NCBI GenBank assembly: GCA_030536255.1
Contig: JAUNQI010000011.1
Location: 23,813 to 83,627 of the forward strand
DNA from: Eubacteriales bacterium
GTDB lineage: Bacteria; Bacillota; Clostridia; Oscillospirales; Oscillospiraceae
Direction: 5' to 3'
Length of the DNA stretch: 59,815 nucleotides
Numbering within the stretch: the first letter of the stretch is position 1; each line of letters begins with the position of its first letter. The position numbers and the translations under genes are program-made. The notes beneath the pieces were generated by a model. That model did no database searches and was not told the DNA's origin. It saw only the letters and a list, made by a program, of their open reading frames with translations. Of the stretch, positions 26,127-51,199 are shown piece after piece.

Positions 26127-26689
26127 ATAATTCCAAACAGTTTTCCCGCCGCGAGAAAATTCTCCTTCTGATCCTCGCCCTGCTTGTTCTGGGCAGCGGA
26201 TATTACTTCTTTGTGCACCGGACAGTAGTGGACAGCCTTGAGCGCTGTGCCCAGCAGACGGAATCGCTCAATACAGACATCACGATCCTCACTGCGAAAA
26301 AGCAGAAACAGGACGAGATGCAGAAGGAACTCGACGAGATCAAGGCACAGGGCAACCCTCCGATTGTTCCCGACTATGACAATCTTGACAAGGAAATATC
26401 CTACCTTTACGGCGTTCTGAGCACTACGTTTGACTATAAGCTTTCCGTGCAAAGTGTCCAGAAGGCATCTGACAATTCCAACATTGTCAGAAGAAGCATG
26501 ACGCTTTCCTTCACCTGCCCGGATTATGACGAGGCAAAGCTCGCCATCTCCAAGCTTCAGAATAGCCCGTACTGCTGCCGCCTTGGCGCAACCTCCATTA
26601 CAAGAAGCACCACCAAGACATCCCGCTCCATCATGGAGGGTGCAGTCGTTGTCACTGTCAACATGACTTTCTTCGAGCATATTGTTTGA
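26123..26689 (+). CDS. pilO: Type IV pilus assembly protein PilO
   Basis: 188 residues; the ATGA overlap with pilN and an upstream GGAGGAG set the start. One membrane helix (LLLILALLVLGSGYYFFV, residues about 13-30) is followed by a coiled coil (ESLNTDITILTAKKQKQDEMQKELDEIKAQ) and a small alpha/beta domain with two adjacent Cys (YCCR, about residue 152). PilO pairs with PilN. It is the last pilus gene on this strand, and no pilP or secretin follows, as expected without an outer membrane. Confidence 0.85.
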   Translation: MNNSKQFSRREKILLLILALLVLGSGYYFFVHRTVVDSLERCAQQTESLNTDITILTAKKQKQDEMQKELDEIKAQGNPPIVPDYDNLDKEISYLYGVLSTTFDYKLSVQSVQKASDNSNIVRRSMTLSFTCPDYDEAKLAISKLQNSPYCCRLGATSITRSTTKTSRSIMEGAVVVTVNMTFFEHIV

Positions 26690-26776
26690 TCATCACTGCT
26701 CAAAGAAATCCTGAAGATAGCCATTTTAACTTTATAATCTCTTGTCTGTTTCGTTTTGCGAAAGGAGGAATTATTC

Positions 26777-28693: not shown

Positions 28694-29182
28694 CTAACTC
28701 TCTGCCATTGGTCTGATGGAAAATTCCCGGGATTCTCCGGAACCTGCACAGGTCAGTTTTACTTTAAAAATTCCGCTTGTCTCATCATAACTGACAAAGG
28801 TATTGGCTGTTCCCGCATCAAGTTTTATTTTCCCTTTTATATAAGAGCCGTCACCGATCAGATCTTTTTCAGCTATCTTCATTTTTCCGTCAGCCCCTAC
28901 TGAAAAGGAAGCCCCCGGACCGTAGTTCAGGCTGGTGAAGGTAACGACACCCGATTCAATTTTCGGATCTCTGGCATTTCTCAGCTCCGACATCACCGCT
29001 TCGGCCAGAGTTGACAGCAGTGTTCTTTCCTCCGCATGACGGATGGATTCGTTGTATACTCTCATGGAAGCGGAGACTCCTGCTGTGAGGGCAATCGTCA
29101 TAATGCTGACAACTAGGAGCGCTACCAGAAGCTCACTTAAAGAAAAACCTTTTTTCGATGATATTTTTTTCATCAGTTTCAT
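28694..29182 (-). CDS. Minor pilin (prepilin N-terminal methylation motif)
   Basis: 162 residues from the ATG at 29180-29182 (MKLMKKISSKKG), with AGAGGA 6 nt upstream. The leader is 12 residues (MKLMKKISSKKG), then FSLSELLVALLVVSIMTIALTAG: Gly at -1, Phe at +1 and Glu at +5 are all canonical. The helix continues as YNESIRHAEERTLLSTLAEAVMSELRNA, and the C-terminal about 90 residues look like a beta-sheet pilin head (GVVTFTSLNYGPGASFSVG). No Cys pair brackets a D-region. It resembles PulJ/PilW-like minor pilins, which form the pilus-tip priming complex. It is last in the operon led by the giant prepilin. Confidence 0.85.
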   Translation of the reverse strand: MKLMKKISSKKGFSLSELLVALLVVSIMTIALTAGVSASMRVYNESIRHAEERTLLSTLAEAVMSELRNARDPKIESGVVTFTSLNYGPGASFSVGADGKMKIAEKDLIGDGSYIKGKIKLDAGTANTFVSYDETSGIFKVKLTCAGSGESREFSIRPMAES

Positions 29183-29253
29183 ATTGTATCCTCTTGTATT
29201 CACATTGAATACTTTTGATTGCTTATCAGATAAAAGCATCTAAATGCGGCCGA

Positions 29254-29610
29254 TCATGCTCCCGCGGATGATTCTGCCGGAGTGGCAGGAATACTGTAGG
29301 AAGAAAGCTTCAGATTCCCGGTAGAAGTTTTATAATTCACCGTGTACTTGACAGGATCAGCGGAATCATTCCCCAGGATCACAGAAAGCGAATCCTGCGC
29401 TCCGCCCTCAGAAGCCATGGCAAGAATCGCGTTATCCAGCTCCTTGTCATAATTCTTGGCCTTGATATTCATTCTGCTGGCAGCGCCGATCATAGCCGCC
29501 AGAACAACGCTTGCCAGGGAAACGATCAAAACAGAAACAAGAGTTTCCGCCAGGGTTTCTCCTGAGGTATTTTTCAGCTTTCTGAGAATTCTTTTCACTT
29601 TCTGTCTCAC
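29254..29610 (-). CDS. Minor pilin / pseudopilin with GETLAE cleavage site
   Basis: 118 residues; GTG start with AAAGGAAGA just upstream. Residues 1-17 are a basic leader (VKRILRKLKNTSG), then ETLAETLVSVLIVSLASVVLAAMIGAA. The probable cleavage site is G/E rather than the usual G/F, with Glu still at +5, so processing by PilD is expected, but the +1 residue is unusual. The head is short (about 75 residues), beta-rich, and ends TPAESSAGA. It resembles GspI/PilV-size minor pilins. Third gene of the giant-prepilin operon, 72 nt before the next minor pilin. Confidence 0.75.
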   Translation of the reverse strand: MRQKVKRILRKLKNTSGETLAETLVSVLIVSLASVVLAAMIGAASRMNIKAKNYDKELDNAILAMASEGGAQDSLSVILGNDSADPVKYTVNYKTSTGNLKLSSYSIPATPAESSAGA

Positions 29611-29686: not shown

Positions 29687-30409
29687 TTATGTACCGTCAG
29701 AGGGATCCGGAGTCTCATTATTATTCACGACACCGCGCTCTATAGACTCCTGATACCACCGGATCTCCGTTGTCTGCACATAGCCGCTGATGTCGTTATC
29801 GCTTTCCGCATCCCTGATAAATTTCTTCGAGGTTTTTACCAGCGGAGCATATTTCAGCGTAACGGGATTGCTCTTCTTTTCTTTGTCTTTATCTGTGGCC
29901 CACAATGTAATCGTCAGACTGTAGGATTCGTATTCGGAGATCGTATCCTCTTCCGACAAACCTGAACCTGTACCCGCTCCGGTCGTTCCGTCCCCCGCTG
30001 AAGAATCCGCTTTGGACAAGATCACACTTCCCGTCACTGCCGGTATGGCTTTTTCGGAGTTTTCGGGAATTGTCAGTTCTTTCGTTGCAGGAACAAGCTG
30101 TCCTTCCTCGCTGAAGAATTTTTTCAGCAGGTTGGCGGTACTCAATTCGGTATTAATTGCCGGATCAGCGTCTTTTTCCGCCTCGATGACAATAACACTG
30201 TCGTTCAGATCGCTGTTTAATACTCTGACAGCCGATTCAACCGCGTAGTATTCCTGCTGGTCCTTCAGCGCATGGCTCGCTCTGCCGGCATTCGTCCCTG
30301 CGGCAGACAAAACCGCCGCACCCACCATCATTGCCACAACAAAGAAAAGAAGCGCAATGATGGAGGACGCCCCCAGGCTGCTTTTCAGTTTTTTCTTTAA
30401 TGCGTTCAT
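29687..30409 (-). CDS. PilX/GspK-like minor pilin
   Basis: 240 residues from the ATG at 30407-30409 (MNALKKKLKS), with AGGAGG 4 nt upstream. The N-terminus is LKSSLGASSIIALLFFVVAMMVGAAVLSAAGTNAGRASHALKDQQEYYAVESAV: a Gly, a short polar stretch, a hydrophobic helix, then the QQEYYAVESA segment typical of PilX/GspK minor pilins. A canonical G(F/M)xxxE is absent (G/ASSII), so no Glu +5, which is a known feature of tip-type GspK. The rest is a 190-residue head with low-complexity Gly/Ser/Thr linkers. It probably caps or primes the pilus. First gene after the giant prepilin gene, behind a hairpin at 30503-30537. Confidence 0.65.
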   Translation of the reverse strand: MNALKKKLKSSLGASSIIALLFFVVAMMVGAAVLSAAGTNAGRASHALKDQQEYYAVESAVRVLNSDLNDSVIVIEAEKDADPAINTELSTANLLKKFFSEEGQLVPATKELTIPENSEKAIPAVTGSVILSKADSSAGDGTTGAGTGSGLSEEDTISEYESYSLTITLWATDKDKEKKSNPVTLKYAPLVKTSKKFIRDAESDNDISGYVQTTEIRWYQESIERGVVNNNETPDPSDGT

Positions 30410-30502
30410 TTTGCCTCCTGACAGGCAGATTGCTTCAGAAAATTTACCGCTTCCTGTAAATCTTTCCAGCATATGCTAAAAATCCGAAAAATACTTTTCA
30501 TT

Positions 30503-30565: not shown

Positions 30566-33500
30566 TTATTGTTCCACCGGAAAATCGCTCTCATTGAGGA
30601 ACTCAGGATTTTCAGAAACTTCATTTTCCATGCTTTCCCCGAACTCCAAATTCGGAGACTCCGTACTCAGCGAAGGATCACCAAGCACTGTTATGATCCA
30701 GAAGGTTTCATGTGTCCCTACCTCGAGAGAAGCCTGAATCAGCTGATTCTCCGCAGCATCAGGGGCATGGAGACGGACAAATACGTCGCCGGAGTCGGTT
30801 CTCTTAACAGAACTTTCCATTCCATCATCGCAGAACACGCTGATGCTCTGTCCTTCTTCCACATTAAACAGATGCAGATAGATTGAATCGCCGGATTTCA
30901 CAATGAGCGGTTCTTCTGCGGATGTATCCGAATCTCTATCAAAGAGATTGCTGTCTTCCAGATAATCCTCTGTCAGCTGATCCTGATAGGACAGCTCTTC
31001 CCGCAGATCATCATCGTCAAAGAGACGGGCAAGGGTATCATAATCATCAGAAGTGCACTTTGCCGACTCAACGCTGACCATGCTCATTATTTCAGCCTCA
31101 AATGCTTCCGCTTCCGCAATGGACTCTGCAATTTCAATGGAAAGGATCGGCTCCTGCGGGACAAAGATCTCTCCGCAAACCTCACAATGGCTGCCTTCTG
31201 TCAGACCAAACTCCGTATAGGTAGGCTCAACAGCAGGATCAATTACTATTGTATGCTCAGCGGGAATGATCTCCTGCGGAATCAGGATTTCGCCGCAGAC
31301 GGAACAGTGGCTGCCTTCCGTCAGACCTTCTTCAGTGCACGTTGCCGGAACGGCTTCGTCAATTTCTTCGGTATGGCCGAGTGCCGGGACGACTTCCTGT
31401 GCTACCAGAATCTCTCCGCAGACAGCGCAGTGACTGCCTTCCGTCAGACCGGGTTCCGTGCAGGTTGCAGGTACTGCTTCGTCGATTTCTTCAGTATGGC
31501 CGAGTGCTGGGACGTTTTCCTGTGCTATCAGGATTTCGCCGCAGACGGAACAGTGGCTGCCTTCTGTCAGACCGGGTTCCGTGCAGGTTGCAGGTACTGC
31601 TTCATCGATTTCTTCGGTATGGCCGAGTGCAGGTACTGCTTCCTGAGCGACCAGGATCTCGCCGCAGACCGAGCAGTGGCTGCCTTCCGTCAGGCCGTCT
31701 TCCGTGCACGTTGCAGGAACTGCTGCATCGATCTCTTCGGTATGGCCGAGCGCCGGGACGATTTCCTGTGCGACCAGAATCTCTCCGCAGACGGAACAGT
31801 GGCTGCTTTCCGTCAGACCGGGTTCCGTGCAGGTCGGCATTACTGCAGTATCAATCTCTTCTGCATGAACATGCTCTTCTTCATTTTCTTCTGTAGAACC
31901 AGCATCGTCTGCGTCCGATCCGCTTTCTTCATCTGCTGCATCATCCTCGTCTTCTCCGTGTTCTTCCAGAGCATCAAGAGGATCATCCGGGAGAAGCTTG
32001 TCCTGATCAGAAGACGGCAGCAATGCATCCGAACCAGCCGAGTCAGATGTCAAATCCGGAGCAGCGGACATCAGCGGCGACATCGCCATCATCGTTGGCC
32101 TTGGTGACATTGCCAGCAAAGGAGGATTATTCTCATCATCGGGATCTGAAGCGGCATCGGCATGCTTAACATAGAATATAACCTTTGCCGTGACTTTCTG
32201 CGAGCCTTCTACTTGCTGGGGACTGATCATTATGGATGAACCGGACGTACCGGGATCTGACGGATTTCCGCTGTACCAGTAGTGATCCAGCTCATAATCC
32301 AGTGCCTTCTCCCCGTCACCGAAACTTACCGTTGGATTCGGTTCATAAGAGGTAATTGTATATACACCAATCGGATCTTCATCTTCAGCTGCATCAGCAA
32401 AACGATATTCAATGTCATAGAACCAATGAAGCTTCAGACTGCCATAGGAATAAATGAACTCATAGTTATCCTGAAGTGTCTCTTTATGTCCCTGAGCTGA
32501 GTCTTCTTCCCACAGATCTATATCAAATTCGTTGTAATCCGTAATACCAATATTCTTACGGAAGGATTGGATATTGAAATCAGGATCAAAACCTTCCCCG
32601 GGAGCAAAAGCATTCGCGTCTGCTTCACCGTTTTCTACTGAAGAAGCGATCACAACATCCCGTTTCAGAATATCCGATCCACTGACAGGATCTGAATACG
32701 GATACTCTTCATCTGCTGATTCAGACCTGAGATAAACTGTTCTCCTGTCTATAACAAATCTGTAAGCTCCCGATTCATCTTTCCAGAGCAGATATCTGTT
32801 TGAAGGAGTACCGGTAGCCGACACACCATCGTAGAGAGAAATTACGATATAACCCTTAACCGGGTATATTCCGGCATTCTTAACGGATGCGCTTTCTCCA
32901 TCACCACAGACAGTTACCTGTTCAGCTACAACTGTTTTATCTTCTGTTGTAATAATTGTCTCCGGAGGACTTGTCAGTACGCTGACAGGCTCACCGTCAT
33001 ACACTTTATAGCCATTAGCAAATGGGAAGGAATTCTCATCCAGTTCAAGGTAATAATCGATAACAACATTCTCTCCGCTCGGAACAAGCACTGTTGCTGC
33101 ATCGGTTTCTGTCGTCTGTCTTCCGTTTCCGCTAACAATAGTTTTAATCAAAGCGAAACCGGAATAATCTTTCGGATCATAGGAAATCGTTTCAACCTGG
33201 TTAAATGCTGGCCTTATCTCGGTAAGAAGGTCTACTACTGTTTCCGCATCAGACATGCTGAACGTTGTCCCCACACCGTTGACAGGAACTGTTCCCTCTG
33301 CATACGATCTTAACCGGAGATGATAATTCACCTGATATTCCCAAGGAGTAATCGGAATGTAGAAGACGTTAACATTCTGATCATCACCCGCAGTGACAGT
33401 ATAATATGTAACCATGATTTCAGCATAATAACCGCTGAGATCATTCAAAGAGAGGATCGGTATGCTGGAACCTATAAGGTTTTCACTGTAATACTCGATC

Positions 33501-36500
33501 AACGGGTTCCCGCTCGTATCTCTGATCGGAATAATACTGTCACCGCTCCTTGTTACGTGATGAACCGTAACCGTTCTCAGATCGTCTTCAGAAACAGCTC
33601 CTTTCCGGATCCATTTCGCATAGAGCGTCAAATCCGATGGAATCTGCATGGAACTGATAAACGGCATATCGCCGCCGTCTGTTCCTCGGTAATACCAACC
33701 CTCAAAGTTATAGCCTTCTTTTTCAGGGATATATGCAGGCAGAAGATTTCCGTCAGCATCCGCAATCTTCCCGCTGATATCAGTATACTTCTCACATACT
33801 ATTGACTGCATAGGAGTTTCTGAACTGCCGGGCACAGGTTCATCCACATAGAAATTAACCGTAACATCCGGAGCCTTCCATCTTCCATACAAAGCAAGAT
33901 TTCCCAGCGGCATCTTTTCAGGGGCTGACTCAGAAAGCTCAGGGTTCACATACCAGCCGGTGAATTCGAAATCTTTTTCCACATCAGCCGGTCTGGACGG
34001 ATCTGCAAGGTACGCCGCAAGAGGCTCCTCATACTTAACGGAGCGAACTGTTGAGCCGGTATAGCCGAGCTGATGGAATTCAAGATTATAACTTTTTCTG
34101 AGATAATACAGGTTATTTGTTCCGGGATTCTTATTGCTCTTGTCGGACGCCGCATAATTCTTGTTCCCGACGCTCCACGCATATCTGTCAAAGCCGTCTA
34201 TTACATGGAATTCCTCATCATATGTAATATAGTTAAAGGAATGCTTTACGGTCTTGTACAGTTTAAAGTAATGCTTGGAATCTCCATTCAGATGCATTTC
34301 AATTACTCCTGAAGTTCCCTGTTCCTCCGGGAGAACTTCAAGATAATAATTGATTGTACTCTTTGTACCATTACTATAACCGCTAAACGTTATATTCGCT
34401 CCGGGAATTCTATCCAGTGTCTGAAGAACATATTTGTAAACTCTTCCGGAACTGTCTTCCCAGCAATATCCGTTATAGTCTTTGCCATTTGTTCCTTTGA
34501 TTGGGAACTGATCCGCTATCAGTGTGTTGTATTTCCCGGTGATCCGATATATTTCTTTTCCACTGACCTTAAATATGAGCGTATACTCATTTCTGCTCAG
34601 ATATACATTCCGTACCGTAGAGCCGTCACCTTCTATTGTTACGGTCTCATTATTCAACGATCCGGAACCGGTTTCATAGGAAAAATACTGATAATCAGGA
34701 AATACTGTACTGATACTCGGGATAAGCTTTGCGAAATTCTGATAATCCGAAGCTTTGACCTCTGCTCCTGTCGTTCCTGTGCGAGAAATGCTGGTAACAT
34801 AGCTGTAACCGTCACCTTCAACATTTTCACACCAGAATGCCACAGAGTACGGCGTATTCTTTGCCGCAGTCCATCCTGCCTTGGCCACAACATTATTTCC
34901 GGGCATTGTTGCCGTTGTTACAGGATCAGATTCATTACCCTTATTATAGAGCTTCCATCCGGTAAAGGAATAACCGCTTCTTTCCGGCTTCGGCCATGAA
35001 TTGGGATCTCCCATCGGCTGACCATAATAGAAACGCATAGGCGGGCAATAGCTTCCGGCTGCTGAGTCAAATGTGATTACAAACTGCTTGCGCTCATAGT
35101 CAATATAGACTATTCCGTCTGTAATCTTTATTTCATTCGTTGTGCAGACAAATCCTGTTTTCGTTTCAAGTCTTAAGGCAGGCGTTTTTCCCTTTGGAAC
35201 TTTGAAAGGCTCTTTATCACTGTACGGATGCGTTTCATATACATCTTCTCCGTAAGCTGTTGAGTTGCCGTCCGTATGATGATAACGATAAACTACCCTA
35301 TACTCCTCATAATCGACCGAATCCTCAATTTCAAATACAATGATGAACTGCGCTGAACCGGTAACATTGTTGATAAAGTACTTACCGTCTTCAATCTTAA
35401 TGCGGTCATCAGATACTACTTCTCCGTTAATATCATAGATGCCTGCAGTAACATTATCTGAATATTTATTGCTGAAAGACGGGAGCTGCACACCGTTATT
35501 ACTGTAACTAACCTGGCTCATCGGAACACTTATTCTGATCTGTGACTTTTCCGACTCCGTCTCTTCAACACGATAAAGCGGAACAGATCCCATAGGAGAT
35601 GTTTCTTTACCGTATTTATACATAAAGTCAATCGTGATCAGATAATTTTCAGCAGGAATATATTTTGCATAAAACTTAATATTATCCTCGGCAGAAAGCT
35701 CAGATATCTGATTTTCTCCCGTAAAGCTGACAGGCTTTGTGAGCTCCGGATCCAGATACCAGCCTTCAAACAGTTTGTCCGGCAAAGATCTCTGGGGAGG
35801 TACAATTTCGCTTAGCTTTGCATCTCCCGATTCCGCCATAGGAAGTCCCATACGCATGAATTCCCCGGCTGTTCCTTCTGCAGGGCCGGTCGGATCATAG
35901 TAGAAGAACAACGACTTCTTTCCTTCTTCATGCTGATATCCGCCTACTGCAACCAAACTTATATTTTTACCGGTAAGCGCACTGTCAAGGACAAGATAAC
36001 CGCCTTCCGCACTCAGAGAGACAATTTTCTCGCCCAAGTTCTGATCGTCTGTTTTTTCATAGATATCCCACGAATCGGATACAGTATAACCCGCAACCTT
36101 TCCAAGACTCGGCAAAGGTAAGGAATTCTCTCTGCCGACAATATACATCTGCTTTCCAAGATTTCCGTCGGAAACTGGCTTACGCAGGCCGTCTTCAGGA
36201 TCTACATAATAGAACTCTATTGCATTCTGCTTTGTAGGAGCGTTAATTCCGGGCTGCCAGTCACCGTAATAATCCGGAGTTCCTCCGCTCTTACTCCAGA
36301 TTGAGAACGGATACTCTTTTCCGTTCAGCGTTGAATCATAGACATGGGTATTCGCAGGTTTTGTGTTTGGATCAATTTTCGCAGCAATAATATTCCCGCT
36401 GCCTTCCGTATACTCAGTCCGTTCTATTGTATTTGCAAAGCTGCCGGTGCTTGCTGAACCAAGCGCCGGGACAGAAGACACGCCGCCTACTTCCGTCCAC

Positions 36501-39500
36501 TCGGGATAAATAACAGGAAGATAATAAGTCGATTCGTTATCTACCGTTATTCCGGCCGAAACATAACCCGCAAAGGCACCGGTATAGCTGTTATCCGCTC
36601 CGATTCTGGCATTGATATCCGCAACCGGTGCAACAACATATACAAGCTTCATGCTACCGTTGGATAGAATCCCGCCGGTAATTCCGCCCGAAGCGGAAGA
36701 AGAAGTCATATCCGCAGCAGTCGGCTCCGGCATTCCCTTTACGGAGCAAACGGATGCAGCACTGAATGAACGGGAAATATCAAAGCCCGTTCCGCCAAGA
36801 ACGCCGACAAGACCTCCCGCCTGAGCTTCAGCAGAAACAACGTTATAATTCGTATCATAATGACCGGATTCTGTATGACCTCCTGCATAGGAGGAATTCA
36901 TTGTCAGTTTTCCGCCATTGGACATTCCAATCAGACCACCCGCAGGACCTGCTGAGTAAACATATACCGAAGCGGAAGAATAATCGATTGCAACATCCCC
37001 TGCGGATATGCAGCCGATCAGACCGCCTGCAGAACAATTATCCGCAAGCGCCGTTACAGAACAGGCTGAGCCTGTATTAGTATCTATTACGACAACCGAG
37101 TCAATAACAACTTTTCCGTCCGGAGCAAACACTTCTCCGATAAGAGAACCTGCATGACCGCCGGAAGACTGCAATTCACATTTTTCCAGAGTAAGCTCTC
37201 TGATTTTTATGCTTCCGCTGACAGTGCCGAAGAGACCGGCATTGCCTGAATTGGATACTGTCAGATTCTTTATTGTATTCTCTTGTCCGTCATATCCCGA
37301 AATCGCTGTATTCACGATTGGAGCGAAAACGGCCATGGGACTGCCGCTCCAGTCAATATCACAGTACTGAACAGCAGTTGTTGTATCCGCTCCGACTGCG
37401 GATGTATTCATATCAAGATTCTGGAGATGTCTGCGGTTTGCGATTTTTGCCGTGCTGCCCCCGTTGTTTGCTTCATCCGACCGGTCATAGCCGAAGAGAC
37501 TGTTCGTCTTTTCAACGCCGGTGGACTCTGCTGTTACAGGAGCACTGCTGCTGTTATTGCTGTAAGAGAGAGAACACTTTACTTCAATATCCGCACCGGG
37601 AACGATACCGCTGCAGATATTGCTGAAATGCTCGGAGGGATCATCCGACAGACTGTCCAGAAGTACCGTAAACTCCATTGCATTGCCTGCAAAGTACTTT
37701 AAGGAGCCGGCATTCAGTTCACTGGCATTGATATCCTGATTTATTACCGCTTCCCTGTTTGTACCGTCAGCTCCCGTTCCGGAAACCGTTACGCTGAGCG
37801 TATAGGTTCCGCTCTTCGGGAGACCCTCTGCTTTGGCAATATTGATTACCGCTGTCAGCTGATCCTGATACTTCGCCTCGCCGGTCAGCTCATCACCGTG
37901 TACCGTAACCGTTATTTCCGGCATAGCAATCCACTGCGCAACAAGCTTTACATCACCGTATTGACCGGAAGGTATACTTAAGCCTTTATAAACCTTTCCT
38001 TCCGTCCAGTTCGATGCTGCCGAAGAACTCTTATCCGCTTCGACCTTCCAGCCGTTAAAGATATATCCGGGTCTCTGAGGATTCTCAAGTAAAATTGAGT
38101 CTTCTATTGTAAATGTAACAGGAGATTTTTCTATCTCACTTCCACCATTGGAATCAAATTCCGCAGTGTAGTCCTTTATCTGCCACTGTGCGAGAAGAGT
38201 AATAATATCCTCCGCCTCAGCTTTTATGTTGCCAGTCTTATCCTGATCAGTATATTCTTTATCGTCAGAATCTTTCCAGCCGGTAAAGCTGTAGCCATCC
38301 CGCACATATGAGTTCGCTGTAAGCTTTGCCGGAGAATAGGAGCCGTCCTCATTGATTGAAACCGACAATTCATCCATGCTGCCGGCTGTCGCACCATTTC
38401 CATTAAAGGATATCGTAAACGCATTCTTTGATTCCCAGATAGCATACAGTGTCAGCGGCCCGGTTATAATCTCAGCATCAGTTTCATAATGCCATTCCCC
38501 GGTACCGTCCCTGTTTTCATTCCAGCCAACAAATACATAACCTGTTCTGGTCCATTCAGGAACGTTGCTTCCAACTGTTTTTCCGTAAACGACCTTCGCA
38601 ATCGTACCGTCAGTGCTTTCCGGAGTAAAATTCTTCACAAAGCGGACATTAATATTCCATTTCGGATATAGCACATTGTTTAAAGGATTTGATGAAAGCG
38701 TAACGGTGCTGCCTGATTTGTACGGCGTTGTCGGATTTGAAAAATCAGGTTTTGTATACCATCCGCCAAATTCCGCAACTTCATTTCCTTCACTGTCCGT
38801 CCAAACAGGATCTATCATATCTAAAGTATATTTATATATAGAGCCGTTTTTAACAGAAGTAAATTTTCCTTCATATGCCGTATAGTCAGGTCCAACGATG
38901 GAAGTGTCAAAGATCACATATGGCAGCTCCGTCCATTTAGCATACAGCGTAATATTCTCTGAAACAGCAGTTGAAAAATCATACGCATTCTCCGTAGATT
39001 GTTCATTATACCAGCCTTCGAAGAGATAACCGTTAACTATTGTGTTGCTTGCCGGAGCATCAGGCATTACTGCTCTCTGCCCCTTAGTTACGAACTGCAC
39101 AGAAGGAGGATCCGAAATCTGATTGCCGTTAAGATCAAAGGTCACACAGTATTGTGCTCTCTCTTCCCACTTCGCATATAAAGTAATATCCTCTGTAACG
39201 GGTTTGTTGAACTTATATTTTTCTGTCAGATTGCCGGATGCATCCTTTACATACCATCCGACAAAGTCGGCGTCTATAGCCATCGGAATCAGAGCAGGCT
39301 CTGAAGCATAATCACCGTATTCCAGATTTTGTTGGGCCGGTTTATATTTGTCATCTACTCCAGACCTATTAAGTTCAAAACTGACTACAGGCTTCATCGA
39401 CTCCCATTTCGCATATAATGTGAAACTGGAATTTATATTAGAGATAGTGTATTTTTTATTCCCTGCCTTGTCTGTGCACCAATATAAAAATCTGTAGCCT

Positions 39501-42500
39501 TCAAGTTCAACGCCTGGAAGTGATTCTAATTTATTACCTTTTTTTACCGGAATTGAATCTGGTGGTTTCCCCGGCATACCATTTAAATCAAAACTAACCT
39601 CTAATAAATCATCATCACTTTCAGACGCATTCAAATAAATAACAATGTCACCAGTTATCAAATTCTTATTAATTGAAATATCTTTTAGATTTGACGTTGT
39701 ACCAAAAAACTGTGTATCAGCGTAAGTAACAGTATAACCGCTAATCAGTTTATCATCACAATAAATTGAAATCTTGTTATTAATTTTTTTGTGGGTTGTA
39801 TCTTTTCCTCCCAAAAGTGAATAAGACCTAATATCACTAAGATTTATCGTTTTAAGCTTATCTTTTAAAGAAGATATACCGGTATTTCTAGAGATTGAAA
39901 ATTCCTCAGTTTCCTTAATATAATCAAAAATGCTCCAATCAAAATAACTGATAACGACCCTAACATTATATGTATCTTTAATTACCGTTCCAAATTTCGC
40001 ATAAAGCGTTACATTATCAGTAATCCGCGTGTTGAAATCCCAGGGATCTCCTGAGAATGTAGAATCTGAATACCAACCGATAAATTCTCCCCCTGCGGAA
40101 TCCACCGGATTTGGTTTAAGAGGATAAGCGGGATTTCCGTGAACAACAGTCTGCTCACCGATTTTTACTGTCTTGTTATAAAATTCAACAGTATGAGTGC
40201 GCTCAGCATCCTTAACCCACTTCGCATATACCGTTGTATTCTGAGTAATGGATTTGCTAAAATCAAATTCCGTCTGATAAAGGTTATTAACATACCACCC
40301 GGCGAATGTATATTCTCCGGTTTTATCGCCAATTACAGGAGTCTCCGGCTTTGCCGCCGTCTGACCGTCCACAACAGTCTGAGCGGGAACATCAACCTTA
40401 CCGGCCGTTTCAAAAGTGACAATATACGGTACGTCAATCTTTGTCCACTTAGCGTACAGTGTTACGCGTTCATCTTTGATATCGGCTGATGTAACAACAT
40501 CCGTGGAGAAATTCCATATATTTGTACAAGAACTGTCTTTGTACCAACCCTCGAAAAGGTAGTCCTTCGCTTTTGGCTGTGGATTACTTGTAATCTTTTC
40601 TTCAATGGTAACTGAGCTGTCAGTTATTTCAGCAATTGTTCCCTTCAGCTCCTGAAGATCATACTTTACCGGATAGATCTTCGCCCACTTTGCATACAGG
40701 GTATAATCCTTGGTTATCGTACGGGTGAAATAGAATCTGTCTGAGAAAGTCCCAGTACTACTATCATACTGAGTATACCATCCTTTGAATTTATATCCGT
40801 CTACTGCGGGAGTAGGTACACTAAGGCTATTAGGCCATTTGTTTCCGGAATTAATGGAAACACCCTTTGGATAAGGATTGGTCCCATGGTCTAACATATC
40901 AAATGTTATTGTGCACACAGTCGGCGTCCACTGCGCATACAGTGTTATTGTTTTACCATTTTCAGAAGTAAGATTTCGTACACTCTGTCTGTCGTTAAAT
41001 GATATTCCACTTCCATCGGATTCCGTATTCCATCCGACAAAAGTATAGTTTTCCATCTTAAACTTGTTTTCGCTGAGACGTCCGGAAATATCGTAGGTCA
41101 TCTCAACAGCCGGAACAGACGCTCCGACAGGCAGAATTCCTTCGTTACCATCAAACTCAATTATGTATTTATTGGGCTCAAAACTGACATAATATGTTGC
41201 AGGCAGGTAGACTTCCTTTGTTTTCTCTGGGAAATTAGGATCATCTACAGTTTCTTTCTCCGGAATGAACGAGTCATCCTTCTCGACGGGCAGAACATTC
41301 CCCTCTGAATCTGACCAGATATAATGATACCCTTCATCCGGTACAGCTGTTGCACCCTTCGCATCTTTTCCGGGTGTAACAACCTCAGAGGCTTTCTTCA
41401 CTGCCTTATCGCTGTCAGCGCCTTCTCCTTCAGCAGAACCATCCTCAGTTTCCCCGGATGCTTCTGAAGGATCCGGATTCAGCACTATTCCGCCGTGCTC
41501 CGTCTTGGCTTCATAATTGAGAGTAACACTAAAACCAGCATAAAGGATCCTGTTACCGGTACTTCCCTTTGTGATTTCGTCTACTCTGCTGTCCTCGGAA
41601 TAATCCGGAGCCTCTCCTTCAGGCGCACTGAACCAGCCGGAGAAAGTATACTGACCTTCTTCGTCTCCTTTTTCCGGTTTCTTTTCAAAACCATCCACGT
41701 AATCAATTGTTTCGGTATCGGCATTGTAGGACGCAGGATATCCCTCCGGAAGAGTTCCTCCGTCGAGCTTATAGGTGATGGAGTAGTCGATCGGCTTCCA
41801 GATTGCTTTGAATTTTGTCAGGAAGCTCTCCGCTTTTCCTTCGGAAGGATAGGGGTCATTTTCCTGATACAAGGTATCCTCTGCAGGATCTTCCGAAGAT
41901 TCAGACCCATCATCCAAAAGCTGCCAGCCCCGGAAAGAATAATCCGGATTATTATTTACACCAGGATCAAGCAAAGAATACTTCACTCCGGGAAGAGTAA
42001 ACGTTCCCGCTGCAGAAAGCTGGCAGTAAGCTCCCGCTATCTTCTGGAGCTCATCATCTCCTTCAACAGCCGTTGCCTTACCTATTCTATTTGCAATAAG
42101 CTTTGCATCATTCAGATCATAAATCGCCGTATAGCAGCCGAGAATGATCGCCGTATCATCCGTTATATTGTTTACTTTAACGGATTCCACTATTTTTTTA
42201 CCGTCTGCGGTAGTTACATATCCCCCATCCGCATCCAGTTTATATAGAACAGTGTAACCTTCACCTTCCGTGAGAACATTTCCCCCGGAAATCACCGTGA
42301 TCATTTCCGCAGTAAGATCTCCGCTGACAACACTGCTCAGCGGGTCAAGCTCGCTGCGATTTGACGTAGTCCAGGATTTATCTTTTACTGCAAATCCTTC
42401 ATAGGCAAGAGAAACCTTGTCTCCCGCATTACCGTAAACACTGATCTTGCAGGTCTCAGCTGCTTTCCACCCTGCATATAGAGTTTTATCCGCTGTACCC

Positions 42501-45500
42501 CTTGTTTCATCGCTATTCCATATCCAGCGCATATCGAGAGCATTACCCTCTATCCATGATCCTTCACCGAAGTTCGGATCCGTACTCCAGCCGAGGAACT
42601 CATATCCCTCCAGTTCCGGAGAATAGAGCGTAATATTCGCATCAATAGGATGCTCCTCCGCGGACCACTTCTCCTGAATACCGGCTCCGATAGTGCCCAG
42701 ATCATACTTCAGCGTATACAGCTTCTGGGTAATTACGACATTGATCCCGCCGTCAATAATATTTCCATATATTGTCAGTGTATATGTGTAAGCAGGCTCA
42801 TCGTCTCTCTCCGCAGCTTCTCCAACACGCGAAAACTCAAGAGCCTTTTCTTCATCCAGCTTCAGGATGAGTGAATACTTATTATTCTCCTCATCTTTTA
42901 CATATTCAAAGCCTTCCGGAGGCGTCACATTCTCGAGGAACGGGATAAAATCATTATATTTCGTTCCACCGACAGTTACAGAAATTGTATCTCCAAGCCG
43001 GTATCCGAACTCACTGAAATCTTCATTTCTGTTCTTAACGGTATCGTCTTCCAGTTCCTCATAAGCGACTACGAAATCCGTACCGGCAATAACAGGCGTC
43101 TTCAGCTTATACTCGTCCGTTTTAAAGGTTTTATGCGTCTCATCATCAGGATCATGATATTTATACTGAACAGTAGCTGTAAACTTCTCTTCCATTGCCC
43201 AGTCTCCATAGTGAGGGAGAGATGAGAGCATTTTGAATTTAAAGTCTTCACTGCTGCTTTCATACGGATGGCAATCTGAGGAGGACGTCTCTCTCCATGA
43301 AGATTCTTCCGTCGGCCATACCTCAAGCTCTGCCCGGGCCATAGAGTGTTCAGCATCTGTTTTATCCGTACAGTTGCTGAATTTCCAGAAGGCGTATTTA
43401 TCTTCAGCTGACGGAGCGGTAACAGTTCCGGATGCAAAGCCGAGTCTGGTGCTCACTCCGCCGACTCTCATAAGGACATAGTTATAGCAGTTTCCTGTTA
43501 CCGAAAGTGCTCCGTCTCCGGCAAATCCGGCTGCCGAAGACGCAGACTCAATATATCCCATTGCATAACAGTTCTCAAAGGAAACTGAGCCGGCGGTACC
43601 GCCAATAACTCCGCCTGCTTTTGCTGCAGGAGCACTCAGACCACTGGTCCAGTCACTCTCTCCTGAGCGAAGACCCGTATCGGCATAGCTGCCTTTTACA
43701 GTAACATTATTTGCATGACCGATCAAACCTCCCGCCTCAGCAGCAGAGGGGGCGGAAATTTCAGGCCAGGCAGCAAGGCTGTCTGTAATACTTCCACCAT
43801 CGACCTCGCCAACAAGACCGCCGATATACTCGGAATTGCCTTTCAGATAGAAGTAACTCTCACCTGATGTATCTGTAAAGCTGAAAGTTTTGCTTCCGTC
43901 ATTTTCGCAATAGACGCGACAATCATTTATTGCTGTATTCTCAGTCTTTCCGGCAAGGCCGCCGACCGCGGATGCAGAATCAGCCCCGTCTATTCTGCAG
44001 TTCACAAGATAAACGCCATCGATCGAGCTTCCTGTGTAGAGGCCGAACAGACCGGCATAGTCCTTCCCATCTACGGTATTTCTGACTGAGTCCTCATCCG
44101 TCAGAAGATTCCGGATGATCTTTTTATCTCCGTTAAACTCATCAAGTGCAGAATTCGTAATCGGGGTAAACGAAATCGGATTCTGCTCTTCATCCCTTGC
44201 AAGACTCCAGTCAAGCATATTCAGCTGGACTGCTTTCGTAACAGTGGAGAAGACTTCCGAAGTCTCCGTATCAAGATTCTGCAGATGTCTGCAGTTATCA
44301 ATACGTGCTGCGTCAACCGGATTATCTTTCGCCGTCTTTTTCAGCTCAGAAGTACCTTTATCATAATAGAATAAGCTGTTGTACTCATCGCTTGATGAAC
44401 GTTTTGTCTCATCATCCGCCGGTTTAAAGAGATAGCTATCCTGCTCAGATTCCACAAGCTGAGCTGTAACACGAATATTAGTACCGGGAGTCAGACCTTC
44501 ACAGAGGCTGACGAAACGGTTCTCTTTGTAAGCACTGAGTCTGTCAAGATATACTCTGAACAGAGATTCCCCGGTTTTCTTTTCCGGGTCATACGAATAT
44601 GTAAATACTGTTTCCTTCTCTTCATCTTTTGTTTTTGTCAGAAGTACTCTGCCTTCTTCCTCTCCTACAGAAGAATCAGACGGAGCAGAGCCATCCGATG
44701 TTTCAGCCGAAGGCTCCGTATCGTCCGAAGCAGGATCCGGATCTTCTTCGCCGTCAACCGCTTTAAAATAGACGATCTTCGGTTCGGAAAGAGGATTACC
44801 TTCAGCATCGAGCTCCTCGACCTGAACACGAAGCTTCAGATTGAGTCCCGAACCGCCTTCGGAATAATAGTTCTCATAAAGATCCTTCCAATCTTCATAT
44901 GATTCTCCCTCCGGGAAATCTTCCTTCGGGGTACTCTCCGTGGGCAGAACCACACTAATATCCGCATAAAGGCTTCCGTTTTCATATCTCGATCCATTTG
45001 CATTTTCACCGTAGTCATCCACGATCACAACAGACGGCTTCGGCAGTGTCAGCTCAATAACATCCTCATACGGCCAGTCGCCGTGATGATCGATATTTTT
45101 CAGCTTCATGAACAGGAACTTCTCGCTGCCGTATCTCTTTTCATCCTCATGATCGACAAGATCAGGGCTGTAGGGGAAGGTATGATCCGAAGTCTCCGAA
45201 CCGGAGTCTCCGGAAGAGGCTGCTGCATCCGCGCGCTTCTCAAAGCTGCTGCCGCTGAAGAAAGCCTTAGAATCAGCGTCATCATCCTTCATCACGAAGA
45301 ACTCACGTTTTACCGCATTGGGATTTGCGGAAACTTTTCCGTCAGCTCCGGTGATCTTGCTGTCCTGGCAGTTGCCGCTCTTCCAGAAGCGGAACGTGCT
45401 GTCATCCGAAAATGCTGACGCAGGAGCGAAGCCGTAAGAGGTTCCCTTCGCTCCGGAAGCCTCTCCGCTGCCGGAAGCTTCTGCATCCTTGGCTTTTTTA

Positions 45501-47680
45501 AATACAGACTCATTGAAGTAAACAAGACTGTAGCAGGTGTCGGCGGTATTTGCGTTGTTTTCATCAGAAGCGCCGACAAAGCCGCCGGCTGTAACAGCAG
45601 ACGCGATATGACCCATTGCATAGGAATCATCCGCATTAACGCCTTCGGCATAGCCGATCAGACCGCCGGCAGTGCCGGAGGGTGCGCTGATACCGCTGTT
45701 TTCATCCCAGCAGTTCACTTTTACCTGAACCGGATCTTCCCCTTCATTCTCCGAAGGCTTGGTCTCCGTCTTTTCAGACAAAAGGCCGGTATCGGAATAA
45801 CACATGCTGACAGGAAGCGAGTCTCCTGTCCCGACTCCGGCATAACCGATCAGGCCGCCGGCATAGGCATTCTCTGCCGAAGCGCTGACAGCCATCCAGC
45901 TTGCGGAGCTTGTTTTCACGCTGCCGCCGCTGACTTCGCCGATCAGACCGCCGACATGGGCGGCGGAAGAAGACAGGACATAGTCTTTATAATCAAACCC
46001 GGCGACCGCCGAGCCGTCCGCTTCTGTCGGTTCAAGCCACATATGGCATCCGGTAACGGCTGTGCCGACAGTCTTTCCTGCAAGAGCGCCGGTAGTCGTT
46101 TTATCTCCGGAGGCCGCTGCGGAAATCTGCGGGTTGATCAGCTGAATATTGTTCAGCTTACTTCCGGAGAATTCACTGAAGAGACCGACATTTTCCAGAC
46201 CCTTGCTTGACTCCGGAGTGATTTTCAGATTGCGGATGGGATAATAGTCGCTGTTCTCATCCCGCATCGTATAGTAATTATCGAGAGAAGAGTTCACGAT
46301 CGGAATAAAATCAATTCCCGTGAGAACTTTTCCGGAACCCGCCGAAGGATCCGTCGGGGAAGGCGTGCCGTCGCCAACTGACGTTATCTCAGCTGCCGTT
46401 TCCCAGTCGATCTCCGCAGTCTGGATCACATCCCACTTGACGGAACCGTCTCCGCTGTCACCGGAAAGAGCGACTCCGGAAACATTCTGACCCAGGTTCT
46501 GAAGATGTCTGGGATAGGAAATTGCAATCTGGTTTGGCTCAGCTGAACCGGAGGTGCTAGTGGAAGAGTCACCATAATATATTGATTCGAACAGGCTGTT
46601 GCCGGAGGCACGTTTGACCGTAGACAGGAAGCCGAACTTGGCTCCTGCTTCATTCTTGCAGGATGCAAGGACTTCGACCTCAATATCCGCGCCCGGAGTA
46701 ATCCCATCGCAGATATCGCTGAAGCGCTTTCCTTCCGTCAGGGAATCCAGGACGATCGTAAGCTCTGCGCCCCCTGCTGCCTTAAATGGAGCGGAGTACG
46801 GCGTTTTTGCGGTTTCCGAAGCGGAGCTATACAGCTCGATGTATTTATCTTTTCCGTCAACCTTTACCCGGTTTCCGTTTTCATCCAGTTCATAAACCTT
46901 GATCTGGAAATCAATATTCTTCCCGTCAAGCTGCTTCGTAATCTGACGATGAAGCCGGTTGCTGTCCATAGTGTCAAAAGGAGTGATCCGGATATTCAGA
47001 AGCAGCTCTTCCTCATTATCCAGAGAAACCTGCAGCGGGAGATACTGGACTGTTGAATGGCCGTCGAGATTCGTGCCGTCATACCAGCCGACATAATCGT
47101 TGTATCGGGTACTCTCGGCTGAACTGCCGCTGTATTTATCCGTATTTCCGAAAACATTCTGCTCCTCTGAATAAAGGACCTCCAGAACCGTAGCCGTATT
47201 GAAGTCCAGCTTTACGGCATAGTTATTGGCTGCGAGCTGCCCTTCAATGGCATAATTCTCAAGAACAGAAACAAGCTTGGCATCCGATTTATCATACCAG
47301 ACGGGATTGGGCTGAAGGGTACCCTTCTCTTCATCATACTTGTCCTGATCCTTGAATTCTTCCGTTTTTCCCGCTGCTTCTGCTGCGGTAAGGCCATTCT
47401 GGGCAGCGATAAAGATCTGCCGTGAATAGTCATCCAGCTTTCTGATTTCCAGCTTATGCTTAATCAGCGCAACGGACGGAACAGCAATCGCAAACAGAAC
47501 CGCGAGAATGGCGATCGTCATCAGAATCTCTGAGAGCGTAAAGCCTCCGCTTCTGCGCGCACTTCCTGTACGACCGCTCCTGCCTGTTCTTCCGCCTCTG
47601 ATGCCGGAGCGGAATACAGTCTTCCTTTCAGAAATAGTATGATCAGAATTATTCAGTTTTCTGCCGAAAGAATTTTTCAA
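30566..47680 (-). CDS. Giant prepilin-type adhesin (about 5,704 residues)
   Basis: An unbroken 17.1-kb frame. The start is TTG at 47678-47680 ([10 protein letters not shown] next), with AGAGGT about 7 nt upstream; the frame goes back to 47707, but that TTG lacks a ribosome site. Residues 1-46 are a basic Arg/Gly/Ser-rich leader ([16 protein letters not shown]), then [31 protein letters not shown] at -1, F +1, E +5, a full type IV pilin segment. The body, on the first-TTG numbering, holds three modules starting RHLQNL (near residues 400, 1140, 3425) with GLUG-like repeats (AGGLIG), many InlB-B repeats (GY.F.GWY....LYAKW) at about 1660-3230 and 3960-4700, a MBG/YDG-like part near 4900-5000, an acidic linker, and six 41-residue CxxC repeats (about 5281-5521). 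Predicted mass is about 0.6 MDa. No LPXTG, SLH or other anchor was seen. Likely PilD-processed and displayed on the pilus; ligand unknown. Confidence 0.9.
31145..31867 (-). repeat. Six tandem 41-residue CxxC repeats near the C-terminus of the giant prepilin
   Basis: Five 123-bp units starting at 31867 and one at 31255 (one codon shorter spacing). The consensus is [20 protein letters not shown], then [21 protein letters not shown]. Each of the first five has three Cys (TCTE and CSVC) and His residues suited to binding a metal, or forming disulfides outside the cell. The sixth keeps CEVC but has TYTE instead of TCTE. The units are very similar at DNA level, suggesting copy-number change by recombination. 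Similar TCTE/CxxCG repeats are common in Clostridial surface proteins. Confidence 0.85.
33580..35850 (-). repeat. Second InlB-B-like repeat block of the giant prepilin
   Basis: Units such as [32 protein letters not shown] and [15 protein letters not shown], each followed by TLYAKW or a variant. Some are recognisably related to the 1-8175 protein ([21 protein letters not shown] against GDGSTVLNVYFTRNEYTVTFK), so the two giant genes share module ancestry. Confidence 0.6.
36540..37445 (-). repeat. RHLQNL/GLUG-like module 3 of the giant prepilin
   Basis: Third copy, far from the first two: [59 protein letters not shown], then [38 protein letters not shown] and [19 protein letters not shown] units. 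It lies between two blocks of InlB-B-type repeats. Confidence 0.7.
38000..42740 (-). repeat. InlB-B (Listeria-Bacteroides) repeat block of the giant prepilin
   Basis: More than ten degenerate units of 60-90 codons follow the pattern VTFD.NG, GY.F.GWYTD...., [13 protein letters not shown]. The block runs over about residues 1660-3240. A similar second block lies at about 33580-35850. The family forms beta-grasp-like stalk modules in internalins and related adhesins. Boundaries were judged by eye. Confidence 0.7.
43440..44300 (-). repeat. RHLQNL/GLUG-like module 2 of the giant prepilin
   Basis: Second copy: [69 protein letters not shown], then [32 protein letters not shown] and [14 protein letters not shown] units. 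The module order is conserved with diverged sequence, consistent with an old internal duplication. Confidence 0.7.
45500..46530 (-). repeat. RHLQNL/GLUG-like module 1 of the giant prepilin
   Basis: Starts with [12 protein letters not shown], then [49 protein letters not shown] and GLUG-like [24 protein letters not shown] and [10 protein letters not shown] units. The same order recurs in modules 2 and 3. GLUG motifs form beta-helical or beta-solenoid adhesin parts. Ends are approximate. Confidence 0.7.
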
Positions 47681-47798
47681 TTTGTGTACCTCTATATAAA
47701 ATCCCAATTTTTCGCAAAATATACTGTTTATATGAACAAATCTATCAGGAAAAATATGTATAATTACAATAAGTCTATCATATAATTATACAGTGTGT
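47681..47798 (-). other. 5' untranslated region of the giant-prepilin transcript
   Basis: About 110 nt between the predicted start site and the TTG at 47680. It is AT-rich and holds no recognisable riboswitch core or long hairpin. AGAGGTACACAAATTG gives the ribosome site and start. Confidence 0.5.
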
Positions 47799-49473: not shown

Positions 49474-51171
49474 TTGGCATATAAAAGACTCGGAGACCTG
49501 CTTATTGCAGCAGGCCTGATAGACGAAGAACAGCTGGGAAAAGCGCTTGCACTGCAGAAAGAGAGCAAGGACCGTCTCGGTAATGTTCTGATCAGTTCGG
49601 GGATCATCACAGAGCAGCAGCTGATCGACGCTCTGGAGATCCAGCTTGGCGTTGATTTTATCGACCTGAGCAAAACGCCTCTTTCCCCGGAGCTTGCCCG
49701 CCTTGTTCCGAAGAATATAGCGAAAAAGCACAATATCATCCCTGTCAAGGTTGACAGAGAACAGATCTTCATCGCAATGAGCGATCCTCTGAACTTTATT
49801 GCCATAGAGGACGTTAAGCAGATCACCAAAAAACGCGTTGTTCCGATGATCTCCACGGAGGACGCCGTAGACAGAGCCATTACAGCGCTGTACGGCAATG
49901 AAGGCGCGGCAAGAGCCATGGAGGAAATGCGCCGCGAGGTCACCGGCAATGAGGATGTCTACGTGGACGAGAGCGTTCTCGGAACCGTCGTGGAATCCGA
50001 CACGAACGCAGCGCCTACGATCCGCCTCGTAAACAGCATTGTGGAACGCGCAGTAACCGAGCACGCCAGCGATATTCACCTGGAGCCGAGAGAAAATGAG
50101 ATGGCCGTCCGTATGAGGATCGACGGCGTACTCCGGAATATCATGACGATCCCGAGAGAGCTTCAGGGTTCCGTTATTTCCCGTCTGAAGGTCATGGGCG
50201 GCATGAACACCTCCGAGAGAAAGATTCCGCAGGATGGCCGTGCTAATGTAAGATCCAAGCAGAGCGACGTTGACCTGCGTATCTCCACTCTCCCAACGAT
50301 TTACGGCGAAAAGATGGTTATCCGTCTGCTCGACAAATCCACGCAGATCCTGTCAAAGCAGGGAATCGGACTTGACGAGAACAACCTCAAAAGATACAAC
50401 AAGCTTCTGCTGAATACAGCAGGTGTTATCCTGATCTCCGGTCCTACCGGCTCCGGTAAATCCTCCACGATGTCCACAATGGTACGTGAGCTGAACAAGG
50501 AAGAAGTCAATATCATCACGCTTGAAGACCCTGTGGAATATAATATCGACGGGGTAAATCAGGTACAGATCAACGAGAAGACCGGCATGACGTTTGCCAG
50601 CGGTCTGCGTTCCATTCTTCGTCAGGACCCGGACATCATCTCCGTCGGTGAGATCCGTGACGGTGAAACGGCTGAGATCGCCATGCGTTCCGCTATCACC
50701 GGCCATCTGGTGCTCTCCACCATCCATACCAGCGATTCCATTGCAACGCTTGACCGTCTACTGGATATCGGCGTGGAGCCTTATCTGACGACTTCCGCCC
50801 TGAAAGGCGTTATTGCCCAGAGACTTATGAGAAAGGTCTGCCCCAGCTGCAAAACGGCCTACACTCCTACAGCTGACGAGCTTGACCTAATCGGCATGGA
50901 ACCGCAGGAAGGGCTTACCTTCTATAAAGGCAAGGGCTGCCCGATCTGCTACCATACCGGGTACAAAGGCAGAACCGGCGTATTCGAGATCCTGACCATT
51001 AACCATGAGCTGCGCGGAAAGATCATGAAGCATGCGGACAGGGATGACATCCTTGAATCCGCGCTCAAGGACGGATTTGTTCCCCTTGCAGAGCGCTGCC
51101 GCCAGCTTGTTCTGGAGGGCGTAACCACCGCGGAGGAAGCGGCAAAGACGATCCATTCCACGGACGAGTAA
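49474..51171 (+). CDS. pilB: Type IV pilus extension ATPase PilB
   Basis: 565 residues. TTG start, with GAAAGGGG about 9 nt upstream (AYKRLGDLLIAAG next). An N-terminal MshEN/GSPII_E-N domain (residues about 1-140; PilB MshEN domains in other bacteria bind c-di-GMP, and RLGDLLIAAGLI..LGKALALQK fits the motif shape) precedes the GspE/PulE ATPase: Walker A GPTGSGKSST (about 323-332), Asp box DPVEYNIDGVNQVQ, Walker B DIISVGEIRDGETAEIA (about 387-403), His box HLVLSTIHT. A zinc tetra-Cys site (CPSC..CPIC, about 456-492) is present. It powers pilin polymerisation with PilC. Its MshEN domain makes c-di-GMP control conceivable. Confidence 0.95.
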   Translation: MAYKRLGDLLIAAGLIDEEQLGKALALQKESKDRLGNVLISSGIITEQQLIDALEIQLGVDFIDLSKTPLSPELARLVPKNIAKKHNIIPVKVDREQIFIAMSDPLNFIAIEDVKQITKKRVVPMISTEDAVDRAITALYGNEGAARAMEEMRREVTGNEDVYVDESVLGTVVESDTNAAPTIRLVNSIVERAVTEHASDIHLEPRENEMAVRMRIDGVLRNIMTIPRELQGSVISRLKVMGGMNTSERKIPQDGRANVRSKQSDVDLRISTLPTIYGEKMVIRLLDKSTQILSKQGIGLDENNLKRYNKLLLNTAGVILISGPTGSGKSSTMSTMVRELNKEEVNIITLEDPVEYNIDGVNQVQINEKTGMTFASGLRSILRQDPDIISVGEIRDGETAEIAMRSAITGHLVLSTIHTSDSIATLDRLLDIGVEPYLTTSALKGVIAQRLMRKVCPSCKTAYTPTADELDLIGMEPQEGLTFYKGKGCPICYHTGYKGRTGVFEILTINHELRGKIMKHADRDDILESALKDGFVPLAERCRQLVLEGVTTAEEAAKTIHSTDE

Positions 51172-51199
51172 AAAAGAATTGACAGAAGGAGTTCACGGC

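Follow-up and report, generated by a model that had tools for sequence, protein, structure and literature searches.

A 5,704-codon prepilin gene within a type IV pilus cluster of an Oscillospiraceae bacterium, and its relatives in Clostridia

The window considered here, a stretch of 59,815 nucleotides from contig JAUNQI010000011.1 of the Eubacteriales assembly GCA_030536255.1 (Oscillospiraceae), holds a type IV pilus (T4P) gene cluster in which one giant reading frame encodes an apparent prepilin (Table 1). The setting described in the first-pass annotation was recovered, with pilD, pilM, pilN and a gene taken for pilO on one side, the divergent pilB-pilC-pilA on the other and three minor-pilin-like genes, here X, V and W, downstream of the giant. 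The pilN, PilX-like and PilV-like genes lack Pfam matches at E<=0.01, their names coming from order, sequence and relatives, and the weak matches of the minor pilins to GspH, GspI, PilV and ComG models are all below cut-off. PF07963 has three matches in the source genome, every one inside the pilus cluster, and one further T2SSE-type gene above cut-off, which is pilT-like, lies on a different contig. T4P are patchy in the genus, with any PF07963 match found in 4 of 36 same-genus relatives, many of these genomes being incomplete. Between pilO and the minor pilins sits a gene (26756-28555, plus strand) for a 599-aa MatE protein with a C-terminal HATPase_c_2 domain, that is a transporter fused to a kinase domain of anti-sigma type. 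Upstream of the giant and on its strand (48162-49112, minus) is a 316-aa protein with no Pfam hit, in which a VRSKSE...HPDF stretch looks by eye like a PD-(D/E)XK nuclease, and a 583-aa leucine-rich-repeat and TPR protein (53864-55615, minus) faces pilA.

Table 1. Features of the pilus cluster and of the giant prepilin, in positions of the window
Feature	Position	Strand	Basis
pilD prepilin peptidase	23700..24464	+	Pfam
pilM	24502..25503	+	Pfam
pilN-like	25500..26126	+	gene order and relatives; no Pfam hit
pilO-like	26123..26689	+	weak T2SSM hit below cut-off; order, relatives
PilW/GspJ-like minor pilin (W), G/FSLSE	28694..29239	-	PF07963
PilV/GspI-like minor pilin (V), G/ETLAE	29254..29610	-	order, sequence, relatives
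PilX/GspK-like minor pilin (X), G/ASSII, no Glu5	29687..30472	-	order, sequence, relatives
giant prepilin (slot-H minor pilin, likely), 5,704 aa, 622 kDa	30566..47680	-	frame, PF07963, TIGR02532
class III leader, 46 residues, end RSGG	47543..47680	-	sequence
pilin alpha1, residues 47-102, hydrophobic, Glu +5, predicted 54-residue helix at 49-102	47375..47542	-	PF07963, hydropathy, model, profile
module 1, residues 1-880, collinear with entire compact prepilin of relatives; ends in YGDW-like motif (residue 866)	45041..47680	-	sequence comparison
Ig/FnIII-like beta sandwich, residues 207-364 (predicted)	46589..47062	-	model and fold search
body module copy 2, residues 1023-1504, without pilin segment	43169..44614	-	29% to module 1, E 9e-46
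InlB/List_Bact-type array 1, residues 1697-3250, 13 units by pattern	37931..42592	-	Pfam and text pattern
body module copy 3, residues about 3305-3810	36251..37768	-	sequence comparison
InlB-type set 2, sparser, residues 3973-4690, 4 units by pattern	33611..35764	-	Pfam and text pattern
CxxC repeat array near C-terminus, residues about 5290-5510	31151..31813	-	pattern
pilB extension ATPase	49474..51171	+	Pfam
pilC platform protein	51179..52411	+	Pfam
pilA, ordinary-size major pilin, 112 aa	52581..52919	+	PF07963

Pilins normally have 100-250 residues. The frame of the giant is uninterrupted over its 5,704 codons, as claimed from the letters alone, with a predicted mature pI of 4.4; traced from 47707 down to 30566 on the minus strand it stays open for 5,713 codons and holds a single stop, the terminal one. 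The start was picked by inspection as the TTG at 47680, with AGAGGT 7 nt 5' of it, and the TTG at 47707 would give 5,713 aa. Both PF07963 (28.6 bits in the whole-genome search against a cut-off of 21.2, and 21.3 bits in a scan of a longer fragment) and the NCBIfam model TIGR02532 (21.3 bits, cut-off 16.3) match above cut-off, and on inspection a leader of 46 residues ending RSGG is followed by a mature start FTLSE with Glu at +5, which upholds the class III/IV prepilin signal (RSGG/FTLSE) noticed initially. The leader length falls inside the 6-51 range that PMC6916266 gives. By hydropathy alpha1 is the sole TM-like segment of the protein; hydropathy and motif search over its whole length found no LPXTG and no C-terminal hydrophobic segment, and neither SLH nor another anchor family is among its Pfam hits at E<=0.01, in keeping with the lack of LPXTG, SLH and C-terminal membrane anchor reported at first. 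It differs in this from a sortase-anchored adhesin, being without LPXTG and without a TM-like segment beyond alpha1.

The first structure model, built from 4 rows, was poor (pLDDT 37.7). AlphaFold2 with 89 rows reached a pLDDT of 79.8 and predicts a 54-residue N-terminal helix followed by strands, and the 89-row family profile retrieved 20 sequences from the PDB, 18 of them with pilin, fimbrial or pilus names, aligned at the mature N-terminus with a best E of 4e-11. Foldseek and VIA-align matches of the AlphaFold2 model included no pilin and were solely Ig/FnIII-like matches to residues 207-364. The helix-plus-domain fold anticipated for the N-terminal part is predicted as regards the long helix and the strands behind it, and was not returned as a pilin by either fold search. 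Over the first 447 residues alpha1 is the best conserved part, with mean majority frequencies of 0.66/0.65 vs 0.46, 0.36 and 0.29 downstream.

Beyond the pilin segment the protein is a composite of repeated bodies and arrays. Module 1 aligns collinearly with the entire compact prepilins of relatives at 25-29% identity, and body copy 3, like copy 2 lacking the pilin segment, matches module 1 at E 3e-15 and copy 2 at E 6e-24. Of the repeats proposed initially, the InlB-B-like ones were recovered as 7, 6 and 2 Pfam stretches of PF09479 (List_Bact_rpt) over three pieces and as 17 units by a text pattern of our own, and the CxxC ones as five exact-pattern units starting at residues 5333-5496. GLUG-like repeats are weak in the giant by Pfam, PF07581 being unreported for it at E<=0.01; this model is reported in one compact relative and many long ones. 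The CxxC array also matches the Pfam model A24_N_bact (PilD N-terminal, E 6e-7), probably through paired CxxC motifs only. GC3 is 0.54-0.55 in the first 1,000 residues and drops to 0.32 at residues 2501-3000, against 0.64 in pilB, pilC and pilM, and from this drop, the body copies and the repeat arrays the giant looks to have grown through duplication and insertion.

A search with the giant's own N-terminus scored 1,008 candidates of comparable length and retrieved nothing but the giant. That the giant is a one-off was nevertheless rejected, since profiles and other family members retrieved many relatives. A family profile was made from its residues 1-890 and three compact relatives. Across the order it found matches in 18 of 394 genomes (E<=1e-15), in frames of 732 to 5,739 codons, of which 16 exceed 1,000 and 11 exceed 2,000; in the class it matched 8 of 391 genomes (1e-12), two of them already in the order set and at least two through other proteins and at GLUG level only. 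Scanning named genomes brought up 118 relatives, from which 79 loci were kept, mostly from MAGs of rumen and gut Clostridia, and isolates among the carriers are Oribacterium sp. NK2B42 and P6A1, Aminicella lysinilytica, Emergencia timonensis and Eubacterium pyruvativorans. Where the frame is complete (70 named loci), 56 are below 1,000 aa, 14 are of at least 1,000 and 6 of at least 2,000. A protein database returned 42 family proteins of 2,082-5,306 aa to a first query (query counted) and 386 to a second, the longest among 120 matches listed being 5,534 aa; further giants thus have 5,255, 5,306 and 5,534 residues, and among the matches listed the protein described here is the longest. Those matches also hold a large group of family prepilins of about 2,480 aa (P0049-P0152) on many contigs, one of them on up to 29, and this cluster is that of an abundant species. 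The homologues looked for, with PF07963 and more than 2,000 residues in Clostridia, were found many times beside pilB/pilC. Judged by its sequence, the giant is among the largest of a recurrent Clostridia prepilin family.

That family bears on whether the length of the gene could be an artefact of assembly or annotation, or the gene a decaying one. The contigs are from MAGs throughout, repeats are prone to mis-assembly, and the lower GC3 along the gene would suit such an origin, which is nonetheless very improbable given zero internal stops over 17 kb, the independent occurrence of family members with 3,700-5,500 aa, on contigs reaching 149 kb, and a gene order repeated in other genomes.

Gly or Ala at −1 together with Glu at +5 is found at all 79 named loci (at one, L066, by inspection), although these were found via a pattern lying in alpha1 and so their full retention of the pilin segment cannot reveal its loss; both residues are also present in 22 of 22 inspected family proteins. 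As to bodies lacking a pilin segment, the two weak body-only matches from the class that were read are both GLUG-level only; in G685 the protein has 543 aa and begins with an ordinary TM segment, in G058 it is Sec-exported.

In the published description of minor pilins (parts of PMC9934059), H, I, J and K are encoded by one operon, K lacks Glu5 and acts as cap, and the major pilin is contacted via H. At 62 of the 79 named loci X, V, W and the large prepilin are contiguous, the prepilin standing straight after X-V-W. By a scripted rule Glu5 is lacking from X at 68 of 69 loci and present in V at 68 of 69 and in W at 64 of 72. At the giant's own locus the three minor pilin genes claimed to follow it are indeed there, and X is without Glu5, an absence that in published work marks the K cap. 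It is likely, then, that X, V and W resemble the tip pilins I, J and K and that the giant fills slot H, an assignment drawn from Glu5 motifs and gene order that match the published H-I-J-K logic, not from fold. In the order survey five loci (L041, L044, L045, L048 and L049) read pilO-H-X-V-W, and at two (L039 and L046) H-X-V-W is divergent from pilB as at the giant's locus. With the H-I-J-K complexes FimU/PilV/PilW/PilX and GspH/I/J/K the cluster shares a four-pilin operon with one member lacking Glu5 and the order and motifs of I, J and K; it differs in that a giant body is here carried on H, and the likeness is drawn from motifs and order. Known H subunits are ordinary small pilins.

Such a context weighs against another reading of the class III signal, namely that it merely inserts and anchors a giant surface protein which, after PilD cleavage, stays in the membrane and never enters a pilus. 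A body far oversized for filament packing would fit this, as would the principle that a wall-spanning protein rooted in the membrane requires no pilus, and around two prepilins of the order survey (L050 and L052) the 20 kb examined are devoid of T4P genes, a third locus (L043) being cut by a contig end. We nevertheless hold membrane anchoring to be unlikely, as Glu5, used in filament assembly according to published work, is kept at every named locus, the gene is contiguous with X-V-W at most of them and adjoins pilB-pilO in many, and alpha1 is the part best conserved.

The reading we prefer, and consider probable, is that the giant is a modular type IV prepilin, likely the H of an H-I-J-K-like tip complex, which displays a giant and probably adhesive body on the pilus. 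Modular pilins are already known and the giant is an extreme variant of them. Like PilB and PilC of Streptococcus sanguinis, as described in parts of PMC8179133 and PMC9934059, it combines a class III signal and pilin segment with a C-terminally grafted non-pilus module, and in both cases the setting is a monoderm T4P, with the protein encoded together with minor pilins and predicted at the tip. The modular pilins of S. sanguinis are of about 50 kDa, whereas the giant has three body copies and repeat arrays besides. The most extreme multidomain case noted in the 2021 InterPro survey (PMC8179133) has 860 residues, a length that members of the giant's family commonly exceed with more than 2,000. 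Among open-licence PMC papers none was found on prepilins of the giant's size.

The relatives suggest a second way of arranging such a tip. Where the prepilin is compact, at about 700-960 residues, there is usually a giant as well that is Sec-exported and apparently unanchored, and its gene often adjoins. The X-V-W-H operon has, at 34 of the 79 loci, a gene of 900 codons or more on the same strand and no more than 300 bp away, and these genes belong to a single BLAST-linked family (35 proteins), whereas any same-strand neighbour of at least 900 aa was found for only 10 among 433 other genes in these loci. By hydropathy all 15 visible N-termini are Sec-like, without a prepilin motif, and both LPXTG and a hydrophobic end are lacking from all 25 visible C-termini; Pfam reports SpaA domains in two proteins of the family. 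At full length these Sec giants have about 3,000-5,500 residues (4,945 aa in G054, 3,079 in G270, 5,484 in G014 and 4,878 in G026), and those of G014 and G054 share 46% identity across 4,901 residues, G054 belonging to another family. The G014 protein (L141:1352-17806, plus strand), also without LPXTG, represents a separate, conserved family of secreted giants. Within the source genus G014 has a compact H of about 790 aa and, 3 kb upstream of it, the Sec giant, both on one contig, G026 has an H of 843 aa with its Sec giant on another contig, and the source genome, with its 5,704-aa H, gave no Sec giant when searched with a profile of the Sec-giant N-terminus. The same profile matched 22 of 25 compact-H genomes vs 7 of 31 long-H genomes (Fisher p 9e-7, ignoring kinship and with some matches weak), the compact-H set including 21 named genomes, 19 of them selected as lacking an adjacent partner, and the base rate of the profile is 6 of 147 genomes of the order. 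That long H and Sec giant strictly exclude each other was rejected on account of the seven, L091 and L109 having the two adjacently. The first-pass annotation had reasoned that homologues keeping the body and exchanging the pilin segment for a Sec signal would speak against a pilus-borne adhesin; Sec-exported giants do adjoin the operon, and they accompany a compact prepilin and do not replace it.

At three loci (L084, which is the same contig as L037, L071 and L094) a prepilin is fused to parts of the Sec giant. At L084, a single low-coverage MAG contig, the latter part of a 2,901-aa prepilin, about 2,000 residues, aligns collinearly with the G054 protein (33% over 1,362, E 2e-168); the L071 fusion is cut by a contig end, L094 carries a short stretch and L114 a weak match. 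For the giant of the window a simple Rosetta-stone argument was rejected, its tail matching the Sec family solely in InlB-type repeats. Since these repeats are all that the two share, the equivalence of covalent and docked forms is for this gene one that we infer. Other long forms are built differently, the tails of six (L091, L102, L105, L109, L120 and L138) repeating the H body, and the giant is linked to other long forms at about 30% identity and by a long branch in a tree made by a quick method, whose well supported branches force just 2 of 11 changes between long and compact. In Aminicella lysinilytica a second H-body protein of 1,349 aa (L125:14062-18111, plus strand; G/NAALI, no Glu5) stands directly behind a 1,418-aa H. 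An ordinary-size pilin of 191 aa in G599 (L145:1304-1879, plus strand) bears the family alpha1 signature AxxLFVAAxNSLT and is followed by an X-like gene, the match reading through a TGA; this is perhaps the ancestral size of H.

How the giant would function can be sketched on these grounds. At the membrane PilD would cleave off the leader of 46 residues; the filament would be nucleated by X, V and W, and the giant would join as fourth subunit, touching the major pilin. Its body, presumably unable to pack in the shaft, would be pushed through the wall as PilB extends the pilus, and would then bind a surface, host or substrate, with PilT retracting the load. In relatives a compact H that docks the separate Sec-exported, unanchored giant would probably do this work, and the giant gene would then be the covalent version of that arrangement. 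A different use of the same parts, in which the cluster makes a type II-like secretion or DNA-uptake pseudopilus and the giant is a released substrate or effector and not a displayed adhesin, seems improbable to us. H-I-J-K sets are common to type II secretion and type IV pili (according to the portion of PMC10191384 consulted), the minor pilins weakly match Com and Gsp models, far below cut-offs, and the partner in the compact system is secreted; yet the source genome has the pilT-like retraction ATPase, whose gene adjoins pilB in most relatives, a pilM-N-O set and ordinary PilA are present, and the giant body is covalently joined to alpha1.

Displayed at the pilus tip as preferred here, the giant would work as PilC/PilY1 does, as a large effector, and the Sec-exported unanchored partner of the relatives resembles PilY1 in logic. 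PilC/PilY1 is however a non-pilin with a PF05567 beta-propeller and a Sec signal, whereas the giant has a prepilin N-terminus and no other TM-like segment. PF05567 is absent from the Pfam hits of the giant at E<=0.01, and a genome-wide search matched 0 of 23 genomes, a result that carries no weight as the controls were silent too; passages of PMC9934059 describe PilY1 as absent in monoderms. The split form of the relatives is also like CofB-CofJ of ETEC type IVb pili (from what PMC8179133 says in the parts seen), where a tip minor pilin adapts a secreted unanchored protein; CofB-CofJ is much smaller, and the likeness is one of arrangement. For the family at large it can be proposed, as a tentative generalisation that we would rate a little short of an even chance, that in many gut Clostridia the T4P have a tip of megadalton scale reached by either of two interchangeable routes, docking of an unanchored Sec giant (about 5,000 residues, encoded by a neighbouring gene) to a compact H or fusion of the body to H itself, that evolution went repeatedly from docked to covalent, and that this tip is the monoderm counterpart of PilY1. 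We know of no fused form of CofB-CofJ.

If the reading of the giant is true, prepilins of 1,000-5,700 residues recur in slot H and the pilus motor would extrude and retract subunits that exceed the shaft pilin more than 20-fold in size, and gut bacteria of a large group, for which no type IV pilus tip adhesin is identified, would possess one. The occurrence of split and fused arrangements is a direct genetic argument for pairing the secreted giant with a pilin. With culturable carriers such as Emergencia timonensis SN18, Eubacterium pyruvativorans i6, Aminicella lysinilytica and Oribacterium, adhesion by monoderm pilus becomes testable.
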